Below the pieces are notes generated by a model. The model saw only the letters and a list, made by a program, of their open reading frames with translations. It had not been told where the DNA came from and did not search any database. Source: an uncultured Clostridia bacterium (GTDB lineage: Bacteria > Bacillota > Clostridia > TANB77 > CAG-465). Taken from it: a stretch of DNA of 32,176 nt. The position numbers and the translations under genes were made by a program. Shown here piece by piece: positions 7,470-14,128 of the stretch (positions are counted from its first letter, which is position 1; each line of letters opens with the position of its first letter). The DNA is taken from the NCBI GenBank assembly GCA_944386605.1, contig CALXBS010000001.1, positions 93,718 to 125,893 on the forward strand, in the 5' to 3' direction.

Positions 7470-9443
7470 TTGGCAAATAAATTAGTGATTGTGGAGTCAC
7501 CTTCTAAGGCTAAAACAATAAAAAAATATTTGGGAACAGATTACGAAGTAATTGCTTCTCAAGGACACATTATCGATTTACCTAGTAGTAAAATGAGTGT
7601 AGATATTGAACATGATTTTAAACCGGAATACAAGGTGATGAAAGGAAAAGCAAAACTTGTTAAAGAGATAAAAGCAGAAGCAAAGAATAAAGAGAAAGTC
7701 TATCTTGCAACCGACCCTGACCGTGAAGGAGAGGCGATTGCTTGGCATATTAAAAATGTACTCGATATTGCAGATCATGAAAAATGTAGAATAGAATTTA
7801 ATGAAATCACACAAAATGCAGTTAAGAAAGCCGTACAAAAGCCTAGAGAAATAGACATGAATTTGGTAAATGCACAACAGGCAAGACGTATTTTAGATAG
7901 AATTGTTGGATATAAATTATCCCCTCTATTATGGAAGAAAGTAAAAAAAGGATTAAGTGCTGGTAGGGTACAATCAGTTGCTTTAAGAATTATCATGGAT
8001 AAAGAAAGACAAATTCGTGATTTTAAGTCAGAGGAGTATTGGGTAATTTTAGCAAGATTAGCTTTTCAAAAGGATGTTGTTTTAGCAAAATTTTATGGAG
8101 ATATTCATGGAAAAATTGAATTAAAGAATGAAAAACAAGTAAAGGAAATTATTAAGAAAATTGATCAAAAAGAATATAGTGTTGTGGATGTGAAAAAGAG
8201 CGAGAGAAAGAAAAATCCACCTCCTCCTTTTACGACATCTTCCTTACAACAAGAAGCTTCTAGAAAATTAGGCTTTGGTGTAAAAAAGACCATGATGGTT
8301 GCTCAAAAACTATACGAAGCCGGTCATATCACTTATATGAGAACAGATTCTACAAGACTATCAGAGGAAGCTAAAGTAATGGCAAAAAACTATATTTTAG
8401 ATAAATTTGGAAAAACATATTATTTGGATAGGGTTTTTAAAGCAAAAGAAAGTGCACAGGATGCGCATGAGGCAATTCGTCCTACTCATTTGGAAAATGA
8501 TATAGAAGAATTGGCTTCTGATGAAATGAAATTATATACACTAATTAAAAATAGATTTTTAGCTTCACAAATGGCGGTAGCACTTTATGATACTACCAAA
8601 ATAACCGTAAATGTAGAAGATTATATTTTCTATATTAATGGAAGTGTTATGCGATTTGATGGATTTATGCGATTATATGTAGAAGGTAAAGATGTAAAAT
8701 CTAAAGGAAAAGAAGAGGATGTGGAGGAAGAGGAATCTCAAAATGCAATGTTACCAGACTTTAAAATAGGAGATATCCTTGAACAAAAAGAGTTAAAACC
8801 AGAACAAAAATTTACAGAACCACCCGTTCGATATACAGAAGCAACTTTGGTAAAAGTAATGGAAGAAAAAGGGATTGGTAGACCTAGTACTTATGCTCCA
8901 ACGGTATCTACTTTAGAGGAAAGAGCCTATATTGAAAAGCAAAACAAATATTTGGTTCCTACTGAATTAGGAGAAGTTGTTGATAACTTAATGGAAGAAA
9001 ATTTTCAAGATATTGTTGATTTAAAATTTACTGCAGATATGGAAAATAAATTGGATTTGGTTGCAGAAAATAAAGAAAATTATATTCAAATGTTGCATGA
9101 ATTCTATGAACCATTTATTACCAATTTAGAAGCGGTAGAAGACAAAATTGAAAAAGTAAAATTAGAAGATGAAGTAAGTGACGTAAAATGTGAATTGTGT
9201 GGAAGGAATATGGTTATAAAGCAAGGAAGATTTGGTAAATTTTTAGCGTGTCCTGGATATCCAGAATGCAAAAATACCAAACCGATTGTTCAGACTATTG
9301 ATATTCCTTGTCCAAAATGTGGCGGTAAAGTATTGATTAAGAAAACAAAAACCAAGAGAAGTTTTTATGTATGTGAAAATAATTCGAATACAGAAGATAG
9401 TAAATGTGACTTTATCTCTTGGAATAAACCAAGTAAAAAGTGA
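7470..9443 (+). CDS. topA: DNA topoisomerase I
   Basis: A 657-residue type IA topoisomerase that relaxes negative supercoils. The Toprim domain begins LVIVESPSKAKTIKKYLG and carries TDPDREGEAIAWH (about residues 77-89). The active-site Tyr is in HITYMRTDSTRLS (Tyr289). Two C-terminal four-Cys zinc ribbons follow (CELCGRN...CPGYPEC and CPKCGGK...C...C). I chose the TTG at 7470, ten bases after AAAGG, giving MANKLVIVESP. An upstream TTG at 7461 sits one base from that site. It has its own promoter and an intrinsic terminator overlapping its stop. The pairing with trmFO is common in Firmicutes. Confidence 0.96.
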   Translation: MANKLVIVESPSKAKTIKKYLGTDYEVIASQGHIIDLPSSKMSVDIEHDFKPEYKVMKGKAKLVKEIKAEAKNKEKVYLATDPDREGEAIAWHIKNVLDIADHEKCRIEFNEITQNAVKKAVQKPREIDMNLVNAQQARRILDRIVGYKLSPLLWKKVKKGLSAGRVQSVALRIIMDKERQIRDFKSEEYWVILARLAFQKDVVLAKFYGDIHGKIELKNEKQVKEIIKKIDQKEYSVVDVKKSERKKNPPPPFTTSSLQQEASRKLGFGVKKTMMVAQKLYEAGHITYMRTDSTRLSEEAKVMAKNYILDKFGKTYYLDRVFKAKESAQDAHEAIRPTHLENDIEELASDEMKLYTLIKNRFLASQMAVALYDTTKITVNVEDYIFYINGSVMRFDGFMRLYVEGKDVKSKGKEEDVEEEESQNAMLPDFKIGDILEQKELKPEQKFTEPPVRYTEATLVKVMEEKGIGRPSTYAPTVSTLEERAYIEKQNKYLVPTELGEVVDNLMEENFQDIVDLKFTADMENKLDLVAENKENYIQMLHEFYEPFITNLEAVEDKIEKVKLEDEVSDVKCELCGRNMVIKQGRFGKFLACPGYPECKNTKPIVQTIDIPCPKCGGKVLIKKTKTKRSFYVCENNSNTEDSKCDFISWNKPSKK

Positions 9444-9470
9444 GTAGATAAGCTTCTACTCTATTTTTTT
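9442..9470 (+). terminator. topA intrinsic terminator
   Basis: A 7-bp perfect stem (9442-9448 with 9455-9461), six-base loop AT-rich, then TATTTTTTT. The stem starts inside the topA stop codon. Confidence 0.82.
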
Positions 9471-10878: not shown

Positions 10879-11787
10879 GTGGGAAAGATTTATTTATTAT
10901 ATGGTCCTGAGAAATATGATTTAAATTTAAAAGTGGAAAAAATAAAAAAAGAATTTGAAAAGTTAGAACTTGGTGTAAATCTTTTTTATATCACAAAAGA
11001 AAATATAGAAGAATTAGAGTCTTGTTTGCAAAGTGTTACTTTTTGGGGAACTTCCAAACTAATTATCATAAAGGATACAAAATTAAAATTTCCAGTCGAT
11101 TTATTAAAAGAAATTAGTGACGATGTTGTGGTTGTGATATTAGAAGATAGTGTAGATAAGAGAACATCAGATTACAAAGCAATTAGTAAAATAGCACAGT
11201 GTATTGAATTTAAACAATTAGATAGTAAAGAATTGATACAATATATTATCCAAGTGTTAGGAAAATATGGTATTCAAATATCTTATTTAGACGCAGAATA
11301 TTTTCAAAGTTTATGTGGTGAAAGTAAAGAAAATTTAGTAAATGAATTAAAAAAGTTAGTGATTTATCTAGATGGTGACACTAAGGTAAATAAAGAAATA
11401 ATTGAGCAAGTGTGTTCTAAAACATTAAATGCCGAGATTTTTGATGTATTGTCAAAGATTATTCATAAGAAGAAAAAAGAAGGAATTTTGTTATTAGAAA
11501 GTTTGTTAAAACAAAAAGAATCTATTATAAAAATCTATATTATGTTGTATAAACAAATCAAACAAATGTATATGATTAAATATTTAAACAATGCGAAAGT
11601 AAAAGACATTTCTTCCGTTATAAAAATTCATCCATATGTTTTAAAGAATTTAACACAAGCAAGTGAGCATTATACTTTGCAAGAACTTAAAAATATTTTG
11701 TATCAATTTGATGAATATGATCAAAAAACGAAATTAGGAGAAATGGATTTTGAAATTGGTTTAAAAAAATTGATTGCAAGTATGTAA
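10879..11787 (+). CDS. holA: DNA polymerase III delta subunit
   Basis: A 302-residue clamp-loader subunit that opens the beta sliding clamp. It begins KIYLLYGPEKYDLNLKVEKI, matching the degenerate AAA+ N-terminus of delta (usual form YLLYGEExYL). The middle part has the expected pattern: DLLKEISDDVVVVILEDSVDKRT near 75-97, and a helical C-terminal collar domain with KEGILLLESLLKQKESIIKIY near 197-217. It is slightly shorter than typical (about 330). The start is a GTG preceded at 11 bases by AAAAGGG, a weak arrangement; no better in-frame start is close. The downstream hairpin at 11800-11839 probably ends this transcript before gpr. Confidence 0.85.
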   Translation: MGKIYLLYGPEKYDLNLKVEKIKKEFEKLELGVNLFYITKENIEELESCLQSVTFWGTSKLIIIKDTKLKFPVDLLKEISDDVVVVILEDSVDKRTSDYKAISKIAQCIEFKQLDSKELIQYIIQVLGKYGIQISYLDAEYFQSLCGESKENLVNELKKLVIYLDGDTKVNKEIIEQVCSKTLNAEIFDVLSKIIHKKKKEGILLLESLLKQKESIIKIYIMLYKQIKQMYMIKYLNNAKVKDISSVIKIHPYVLKNLTQASEHYTLQELKNILYQFDEYDQKTKLGEMDFEIGLKKLIASM

Positions 11788-11791
11788 TACA

Positions 11792-11822
11792 TGCATATTA
11801 CCTCATATATTGATTCATAATA
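11792..11822 (+). promoter_or_regulatory. Sigma-G (forespore) promoter of gpr
   Basis: GCATA in TGCATA (11792-11797), 18 bases, CATAATA (11816-11822). This fits the sigma-G pattern GHATR-N17/18-CATWHTA at every position. gpr is a known sigma-F/sigma-G gene. The start is predicted near 11828-11830, giving a leader of only 10-12 bases that begins at the gpr ribosome site. Confidence 0.75.
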
Positions 11823-11839
11823 ATGTATGAGGTGTTTTT
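11800..11839 (+). promoter_or_regulatory. Hairpin masking the gpr ribosome site; also possible holA terminator
   Basis: A perfect 8-bp stem, ACCTCATA (11800-11807) with TATGAGGT (11826-11833), loop of 18 bases, followed by GTTTTT. The right arm contains the gpr ribosome site GAGGTG (11829-11834). RNA read through from holA can fold it and would hide that site, or terminate at the T-run. RNA started at the sigma-G promoter lacks the left arm and cannot. The structure is seen in the sequence; the regulatory effect is inferred. Confidence 0.65.
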
Positions 11840-12790
11840 ATGGAAAAAGAAAATTTTAATTTTAGAACGGATATGGCTGATGAAAGAGTGGATAGCTATA
11901 AAAAGATCAATAACTTAAGCGAAGTGGATGGAATTAAAGTATCTACGGATTCCAAAGATGGCGTTCATACAACCATAGTAGATGTACTAAATGAAAATGG
12001 AGAAAAAGCAATTTCTAAAAAGATAGGAAGATACATTACATTAGAAATACAAGATTTAAAATATTTAGAAGAGGAGCAAAAAGAAAATATTGTAAGTATG
12101 ATTTCCAGTATGTTAAAAGAATTGCTTCCACAAGACTATAAAAAATCAATTATTGTCTTAGGTTTAGGTAATGAATATGTAACTCCCGATTCGTTAGGAC
12201 CAAAAGTTGTTAAAGATATTGAAATAACAAGACATTTAATTAAGTTAGCTAAGGAATTTATCGATGATAATACAAGAGAAATATCTGCACTAGCTCCTGG
12301 AGTACTTGGTACGACTGGAATTGAAACATCTGAAATTATCTCTGCAGTCGTAGAAAAAGCAAAAATTGATGTTATTATTGCAATTGATAGTTTAGCGTCT
12401 CAAAATATGGATCGTTTAGGAACGACCATTCAAATTACCAATACAGGGATTACCCCTGGATCGGGTGTTCAAAATAAACGTGAGGGGATTACACAAGAGG
12501 TACTTCATGTCCCTGTTATTGCAATTGGCGTTCCTACTGTGGTAGATATGGCTTCCATTACCAATGAAGCAATTGATAAAATGATTCATCAAGTAGGAAA
12601 TGAAGAAGAAAAGGCTGAAAAAGAAGAAAAATTATTCTCTGATCTAGAAAAAGATGAAAGATATCAAATGATTGCTAAATTATTAGATACGAAGAATTAT
12701 ATGGTAACTCCAAAAGATATTGATGCAGTTATTGAAATTGTTTCCAATATGATATCTAAAAGTATCAATTTGTCATTAAAAGTAGAATAA
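11840..12790 (+). CDS. gpr: Germination protease GPR (SASP-degrading)
   Basis: A 316-residue peptidase of family A25. It is stored as a zymogen in the spore and degrades small acid-soluble DNA-binding proteins at germination. The N-terminal FRTDMADE (about residues 8-15) is the conserved RTDxAxE segment next to the propeptide. The core has IIVLGLGNEYVTPDSLGPKVV (near 104-124), SALAPGVLGTTGIETSEII (near 149-167), IAIDSLAS, and VIAIGVPTVVDMA near 230-242. The ATG lies five bases after GAGGTG, inside the hairpin described above. Downstream is a strong terminator, so it is a single-gene forespore unit. Confidence 0.95.
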   Translation: MEKENFNFRTDMADERVDSYKKINNLSEVDGIKVSTDSKDGVHTTIVDVLNENGEKAISKKIGRYITLEIQDLKYLEEEQKENIVSMISSMLKELLPQDYKKSIIVLGLGNEYVTPDSLGPKVVKDIEITRHLIKLAKEFIDDNTREISALAPGVLGTTGIETSEIISAVVEKAKIDVIIAIDSLASQNMDRLGTTIQITNTGITPGSGVQNKREGITQEVLHVPVIAIGVPTVVDMASITNEAIDKMIHQVGNEEEKAEKEEKLFSDLEKDERYQMIAKLLDTKNYMVTPKDIDAVIEIVSNMISKSINLSLKVE

Positions 12791-12913: not shown

Positions 12914-14128
12914 ATGAAGAAAATGAAAATAGGAAAAGTGATACTTTTGTTCACATGTTTCTTATTGATGAATATCTTAACTAGTAATGCAACCAATATA
13001 TATGCTCAAGAAGTAGATAATATGGGGATTTTTGATATGAAAGAAAAAGATGGAATTTATAAAATGAGTGAAGAAAAAATTACCATTCCATTTTTTAGAT
13101 TTGCAACCGAAAGAATTGAAATAGATCAAGAGATAGAAAATATGGGAATGATCTTTGCAAATGGTGGTATCGATGTTAATGAATCTATAAAGGAATTTCA
13201 GATTTTATTATCTAATGATACAATTCGTGTAAGTTCTATTTTAGAAAATGCTATTATTGCTACTAGGGGAAATGTGATTATCGATTCTTCTGTTGATAAA
13301 TCCATTATAGTTTTTGCAGGAGAAAAAGTTACAGTCACTGAAAATGCTACTTTAAACGGTGATTTGATTTGTTTTTCTAATGAATTAGAAATTAAGGGTA
13401 ATGTAATGGGAAGTGTTATTGGTACTAGTACTACCACTACTATATCAGGAAAAATAGGAAAAGATGTAAGAATGTATCTAAATGAAATCATCGTTACTCA
13501 AAATGATAATATTGTCGGAAATATTTATTTAGAAACAGAAAATAATGCAATTTCCATAGCAGAACAATATCCAGAAGCAGTTGTAAATATTATACAGGAA
13601 TCAAAAGCAGCTTCTATTTTAAATCTTATTATAGGAGTGATTAAGACAGCTCTTGTTTATGCATTAGCATATTTGATAATCTTTAAACTATCCAAAGAAA
13701 AGCTAATGGATAAGGTGCTTAGTAATACTATTAAAAATAAAGGCCATGTTATCATGAGTAGTGCTATTATCACATTAAGTATTCCTTTAATACTTTCTAT
13801 AGGATTATTTGCTTACTTCATGGGATTAGAGGAAATTATTTTCCCACTTATGATATTATATGGTGGTTTTGTTTTATTTTTTGGAATGATTTCTACTTTC
13901 TTAGTTGCTTCATTAGTATTTGAATATATTGCAAATAATCATTTAAATAATCCAAATATCACCACAAGAATGGTTTCAAGCTTTTTTGCATTTTTATCCA
14001 TTCTATTTTTAACAAAGATACCTACAGTTGGTGTCTATCTTCAAATGATTTTTGTTATATTAAGTTTTGGTATTGCTTTTTCATATTTATGGAAACGCAA
14101 TGAAACTGTGAACAAAAAGAAAAAATAG
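12914..14128 (+). CDS. Exported beta-helix protein with C-terminal membrane domain
   Basis: A 404-residue protein of unknown function. A signal-like N-terminus (hydrophobic residues 7-23, possible cleavage near NIYAQE) leads to a repetitive region (about 70-220) with short alternating beta strands and motifs such as ATRGNVIIDSSVDKSIIVFA and NATLNGDLICFSNELEI. These resemble bactofilin-like right-handed beta-helix repeats. From about residue 230 there are roughly five membrane segments, and the end is basic (WKRNETVNKKKK). GGAGG (12901-12905) precedes the ATG. The Ca2+-type P-ATPase starts ten bases after its stop, so the two are cotranscribed. A role in sensing or shaping the envelope is guesswork. 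Confidence 0.75.
   Translation: MKKMKIGKVILLFTCFLLMNILTSNATNIYAQEVDNMGIFDMKEKDGIYKMSEEKITIPFFRFATERIEIDQEIENMGMIFANGGIDVNESIKEFQILLSNDTIRVSSILENAIIATRGNVIIDSSVDKSIIVFAGEKVTVTENATLNGDLICFSNELEIKGNVMGSVIGTSTTTTISGKIGKDVRMYLNEIIVTQNDNIVGNIYLETENNAISIAEQYPEAVVNIIQESKAASILNLIIGVIKTALVYALAYLIIFKLSKEKLMDKVLSNTIKNKGHVIMSSAIITLSIPLILSIGLFAYFMGLEEIIFPLMILYGGFVLFFGMISTFLVASLVFEYIANNHLNNPNITTRMVSSFFAFLSILFLTKIPTVGVYLQMIFVILSFGIAFSYLWKRNETVNKKKK

Follow-up and report, generated by a model that had tools for sequence, protein, structure and literature searches.

The 45 bases that precede gpr, the gene for the germination protease, would act as a single compact gate, terminating and masking RNA that reads through from the upstream gene holA and letting RNA from the forespore promoter of gpr pass. 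We give this reading a probability of about two in three. It is supported by the anatomy of the junction, its conservation, the co-variation of the hairpin arms, the U-tract, the distribution of stand-alone terminators and the rarity of the arrangement elsewhere. It provides a concrete and testable answer to the question of how gpr, located 52 nt behind holA, stays forespore-specific. Gpr degrades the proteins that protect spore DNA, and leaky synthesis from a housekeeping operon would therefore plausibly be costly.

In the window (the whole analysed stretch of 32,176 nucleotides from an uncultured Clostridia bacterium), holA and gpr both lie on the forward strand, as do all features described for their junction. 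holA, the presumed source of read-through, encodes the DNA polymerase III delta subunit (10879-11787; TIGR01128 equivalog, 180.8 bits against a cut-off of 80), and gpr (GPR endopeptidase; 11840-12790) matches the TIGR01441 equivalog with 345.3 bits (cut-off 120) as well as PF03418. The 52-nt gap between the holA stop codon and the ATG at 11840 contains a sigma-G-type promoter with the −35 element GCATA (11793-11797), an 18-nt spacer (11798-11815) and the −10 element CATAATA (11816-11822). Both elements recur in relatives, where GNATA is likewise placed in most cases. A perfect 8-bp core pairs ACCTCATA at 11800-11807 with TATGAGGT at 11826-11833. The complete stem has 12 pairs including one G-U, formed by the left arm ACCTCATATATT (11800-11811), which lies within the −35/−10 spacer and is complementary to the Shine-Dalgarno sequence (anti-SD), and the right arm AATGTATGAGGT (11822-11833). 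The original prediction had placed the −10 element in the loop of a perfect 8-bp hairpin. The 8-bp core was found as described, but since the stem reaches 12 pairs, 11812-11821 remain as the loop, and the −10 element has its final A paired in the stem. The Shine-Dalgarno sequence (SD) of gpr, GAGGTG (11829-11834), overlaps the right arm and is paired in the fold. It is followed by a T5 tract (11835-11839) that is at once the spacer between SD and ATG and the U-tract of a terminator-like site, as 11799-11834 followed by TTTTTATG was called a terminator in a scan of the window. The hairpin, the sigma-G-type promoter and the position of the SD in the right arm were thus all confirmed in the window sequence.

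An Rfam scan of the window gave no match. A short stem 3′ of topA (9442-9461) is symmetric, has T-runs on either strand and resembles a stand-alone, bidirectional terminator. The gene 3′ of gpr (12914-14128) encodes an apparently membrane-bound protein of 404 aa that has no match in Pfam and none near the cut-off in NCBIfam. A usual neighbour of gpr is spoIIP, which is not present beside gpr in the window.

We propose that a transcript derived from holA carries both arms of the hairpin, and that the hairpin and the U-tract would terminate it at the start of gpr. Read-through RNA that escapes termination would have its ribosome-binding site closed in the stem, so that one hairpin would supply two layers of control. 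The forespore polymerase would contact the −35 element just 5′ of the left arm and the −10 element in the loop, and its RNA would start in or beside the right arm, at the putative position 11828-11830, placed 6-8 nt past the −10 element. Without the left arm this RNA would neither terminate nor fold, leaving the SD open and the T-tract as a mere spacer. As the promoter RNA would omit the left arm, Gpr would be made only from the forespore promoter. The proposal presumes that transcription starts there, that sigma-G is the factor, that holA is read through and that both termination and translation are affected.

To follow the hairpin in relatives, gpr was searched for in 28 genomes of the genus, 36 of the family and 287 sampled from the order, and was found in 27, 34 and 267 of them, respectively. 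The named records encountered in the order are metagenome-assembled. No gpr match was obtained in G014, G031 and 18 further genomes of the order, most of them more than 90% complete, and some of these 20 may have lost gpr or sporulation. We collected 87 gpr upstream regions, picked by match strength and genus spread, and scored a hairpin when a z of −2.5 or lower coincided with pairing of half or more of the SD to upstream bases. By this rule 49 of the 87 loci carry the hairpin (median −17.3 kcal/mol), namely 20/27 in the genus, 2/7 in the rest of the family and 27/53 in other families, and it is absent from the other 38. The hairpin-bearing sequences appear unrelated by eye (for instance L008, L083 and L090), and 38 of the 49 show mutual differences above 30% in ungapped comparison of 40 nt. 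The putative module is thus spread across the entire order of small-genome Clostridia, often though not always present. In computed folds the SD is paired in the read-through stem, with a median unpaired probability of 0.00 in read-through RNA against 0.80 in RNA from the inferred start, in line with the expectation that read-through RNA can hide the SD.

The hairpin element also resembles an intrinsic terminator, because a T-tract usually follows that doubles as the spacer between SD and ATG. A stable stem-loop with an immediate U-tract was found by the scan in the window, and at least five T in the 6 nt before the start codon occur in 88% of the hairpin loci, compared with 29% where gpr lacks the hairpin and 6% at the gene starts of the own genome. 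The suggestion that the RNA may end at the T-run is thereby strengthened beyond its first wording, as the element is terminator-like in most of these genomes. Of the 38 hairpin-less loci, 10 have a stand-alone terminator located between promoter and upstream gene, but only 2 of the 49 hairpin loci do (P = 0.004), and the intergenic gap is 111 nt in the former and 56 nt in the latter. In L004, L005 and L012 the stem lies upstream of the −35 element. In the genus tree, the window gpr, which has the hairpin, pairs with L005, which has a stand-alone terminator (support 99/95), and the hairpin-bearing L014 pairs with L004, again with a stand-alone terminator (84/91). Most simply read, two devices that can replace each other would insulate gpr against holA, one a separate terminator and the other a hairpin with three roles.

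From sequence, termination and masking of the ribosome site are inseparable, and two narrower explanations have to be weighed here. The element might be only the terminator of the holA operon, compacted into the start of gpr, with SD pairing as a by-product that has no masking role. We regard this as unlikely, though it deserves serious consideration: it would account for the T-tract enrichment, the complementary distribution with stand-alone terminators and the shorter gaps, whereas L008 has a 14-bp SD-pairing hairpin without a T-tract. The stem also lies on the SD in 49/49 loci, although placement upstream of the −35 element is possible, as L004, L005 and L012 demonstrate; this carries little weight, the 49 loci having been selected for SD pairing. 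Alternatively, the hairpin might be a translational lock only, comparable to that of phage T4, with termination negligible given the A+T-rich stem and the short U-tract. The computed occupancy of the SD in read-through RNA and the documented T4 precedent (PMC2988022) agree with such a lock, but the strong T-tract association (88% versus 29% and 6%) makes it improbable.

The promoter of the window fits the sigma-G pattern (−35 GNATR, 17-18 nt, −10 CATAMTA-like) exactly, so the full consensus fit that had been claimed holds. By itself this fit is no evidence, because exact matches to GNATA-N18-CATAMTA number 5 genome-wide compared with 4 for a reversed control. The conservation of the candidate promoter across relatives, unlike the consensus fit, does count as evidence: the strict pattern GHATA-N17/18-NANWMTW is present in 60 of the 87 gpr upstream regions, whereas shuffled sequences give 2.6 (7 at most). 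The anti-SD bases are located upstream of the inferred start in every one of the 49 hairpin loci. The anti-SD arm lies wholly between −35 and −10 in 46 of the 49 and partly in two, and in L076 a weak promoter call puts the anti-SD bases outside the spacer; this geometry is partly constrained by the search, because promoters were called within that same short stretch. No such constraint applies to the recurring GNATA...NANAMTA motif with its 17-18 nt spacing. This motif bears on a further explanation, in which the gpr transcript begins upstream of 11800 and the hairpin, present in gpr's own mRNA, dampens or conditions translation. A small hairpin at the ribosome-binding site of the B. subtilis sigG leader is described as damping (PMC5942855) and offers a precedent, but −35 and −10 elements at a fixed 17-18 nt spacing straddle the left arm across the order, and we consider an upstream start very improbable.

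With the start placed as in the gate model, the predicted leader measures only 10-12 nt and carries the SD at the extreme 5′ end, which would be unusual in an efficiently translated RNA. Sigma-G is presumed as the gpr factor, because the genus protein, encoded by the sigma-G-like gene G000:C9:2606-3364 (L224), scores 336 bits and stays under the TIGR02850 cut-off of 457. Sigma-G-like proteins of the genus score about 335 bits against this model, and those of other families of the order mostly 410-470. The genus protein may be a divergent sigma-G or a merged forespore factor.

The co-variation of the arms was examined by a swap test in 77 genomes, in which promoter calls were made blind to pairing and each spacer was paired with its own or with a foreign leader (−10 to ATG). 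This unselected version was run because an inner-arm swap test on hairpin-selected loci is partly circular. Pairing between spacer and leader reached −10.45 kcal/mol for own and −6.01 kcal/mol for swapped leaders (permutation z = −17.4, a value that overstates independence because there are related genomes among the 77); dinucleotide-shuffled spacers gave −5.91 kcal/mol. Swaps between near relatives act against the effect. At most inner stem positions, within the SD, four to six standard pair types were observed, which together with the swap test reveals compensatory change that maintains base pairing. Conservation of the complementary arm in related strains, proposed earlier as a check, is therefore seen as co-variation across the order.

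Within its own genome the gpr hairpin is also conspicuous. The 101-nt fold has −21.1 kcal/mol and z = −2.67, with 1 of 200 shuffles equally good; shuffling confined to the bases 5′ of a constant SD gave z = −4.4, and in 300 such shuffles no fold that paired the entire SD was as stable. Among 263 predicted SD-bearing gene starts in 426 kb of stretches, three, gpr among them, have z below −3 while the SD is paired. The other two do not reach −16 kcal/mol, and the SD-pairing hairpin of gpr is the most stable of the set. A chance inverted repeat, to which the window fold z of −2.67, weak alone, and the terminator-like sites found in the window region (4 against 2.4 expected) might have pointed, is rejected by the recurrence in unrelated sequences across the order and by the swap test.

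The device is rare in the controls. None of 28 genes for small acid-soluble proteins (SASP) of the genus carries it; these are as forespore-specific as gpr and yet lack the device, in a comparison limited to the hairpin itself. This rules out a general feature of forespore genes. Other gene starts in the fetched loci gave 1/38, 1/41 and 2/57 (about 1-4%), which together with the 3/263 in the own genome excludes a general feature of gene starts in small genomes; the genus SpoIVB set was left out of the controls for its many misassigned starts. In a class sample of 38 gpr loci, of which 37 are truly outside the order because L215 (G039) belongs to it, three exceeded a loose threshold and a single one, L211, has a strong SD-pairing hairpin. 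According to these controls the device is no trait of all forespore genes, of all gene starts or of gpr generally. L211 (G304) and L208 (G391), both from family f23 outside the order, have very stable hairpins at or adjoining the gpr SD (z of −8.8 and −5.5), perhaps of independent or older origin.

A second gene with the device is sigG. In the order's other families 26 of 30 sigG loci have a promoter within a hairpin (L245-L273 and L217, the latter included in the count). Their anatomy comprises a −35 GNATA, 14-15 nt, a GGAAATAATG-type −10 element, an AGGAGG-like SD in the right arm and TTTTT ahead of a TTG or ATG start. The −35/−10 spacing is of the sigma-F/G type, 14 nt and 15 nt being found in 13 loci each; in PMC5942855 the 14-nt spacing is described as conserved in Bacilli and not in Clostridia. 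Among the sigG-like genes of the genus the device was found in 0/24. The exception from the genus, L217, is a second and more canonical sigG copy in G011 and is possibly a contamination. Given the 26/30 sigG loci and the spoIIIG system (PMC5942855), the order has the known sigG case, in a terminator-like form, plus an apparently unreported gpr case. On balance, and with less confidence than for the gate at gpr itself, we lean towards the view that forespore genes of this order, gpr and sigG, use a three-in-one element of terminator, SD lock and promoter body as a one-way valve, kept up by compensatory change despite sequence divergence. The combination of an anti-SD in the promoter spacer, an SD in the right arm and a T-tract before the start codon provides a sequence-only signature for insulated developmental genes.

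Taken together, these comparisons of sequences support the interpretation put forward in the original prediction, and they indicate, across an order of Clostridia, a logic known from T4 and spoIIIG that is here fused with a terminator. We found no report of the gpr hairpin, of a terminator-embedded promoter or of gpr start mapping in the open-access literature searched, subscription journals being mostly outside this search. T4 late genes and Bacillus spoIIIG already provide the logic; what is new is its occurrence at gpr, its combination with a terminator and its spread across the order.

Compared with an intrinsic (rho-independent) terminator, the gpr element shares the stem, the loop and the U-tract. 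It differs in that its stem is A+T-rich and holds the promoter and the SD of the next gene, and in that it would halt upstream-derived RNA only. The protection of IS10 against read-through is a further possible analogue. Masking of the ribosome site had been said to be proposed for spoIIIG (sigG) of B. subtilis, which agrees with PMC5942855: a large hairpin is proposed there to block translation of spoIIGA-sigE read-through RNA and cannot fold in transcripts of the sigG promoter. Both cases have a forespore gene behind an operon and a hairpin proposed to block read-through RNA, which at gpr, too, would be absent from the RNA of the gene's own promoter. They differ in the gene and in the length of the hairpin, which has more than 20 bp in B. 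subtilis, and the portion of PMC5942855 available describes no terminator function for spoIIIG. In phage T4, hairpins that sequester the ribosome-binding site are known for the late genes I-TevI, soc and e, and also for segB and Aeh1 mobE (PMC2988022). Early and middle T4 RNA hides the ribosome-binding site, and the late promoter is positioned so as to leave the upstream arm out of late RNA, which is translated (PMC2988022). At gpr, likewise, read-through RNA would mask the site and the RNA of a later-acting promoter would omit the upstream arm. However, T4 employs this arrangement in phage late transcription, whereas gpr is a gene of a host chromosome with a presumed sporulation sigma factor and cell-type timing, and its stem is followed by a U-tract that makes it terminator-like and serves as the SD spacer.
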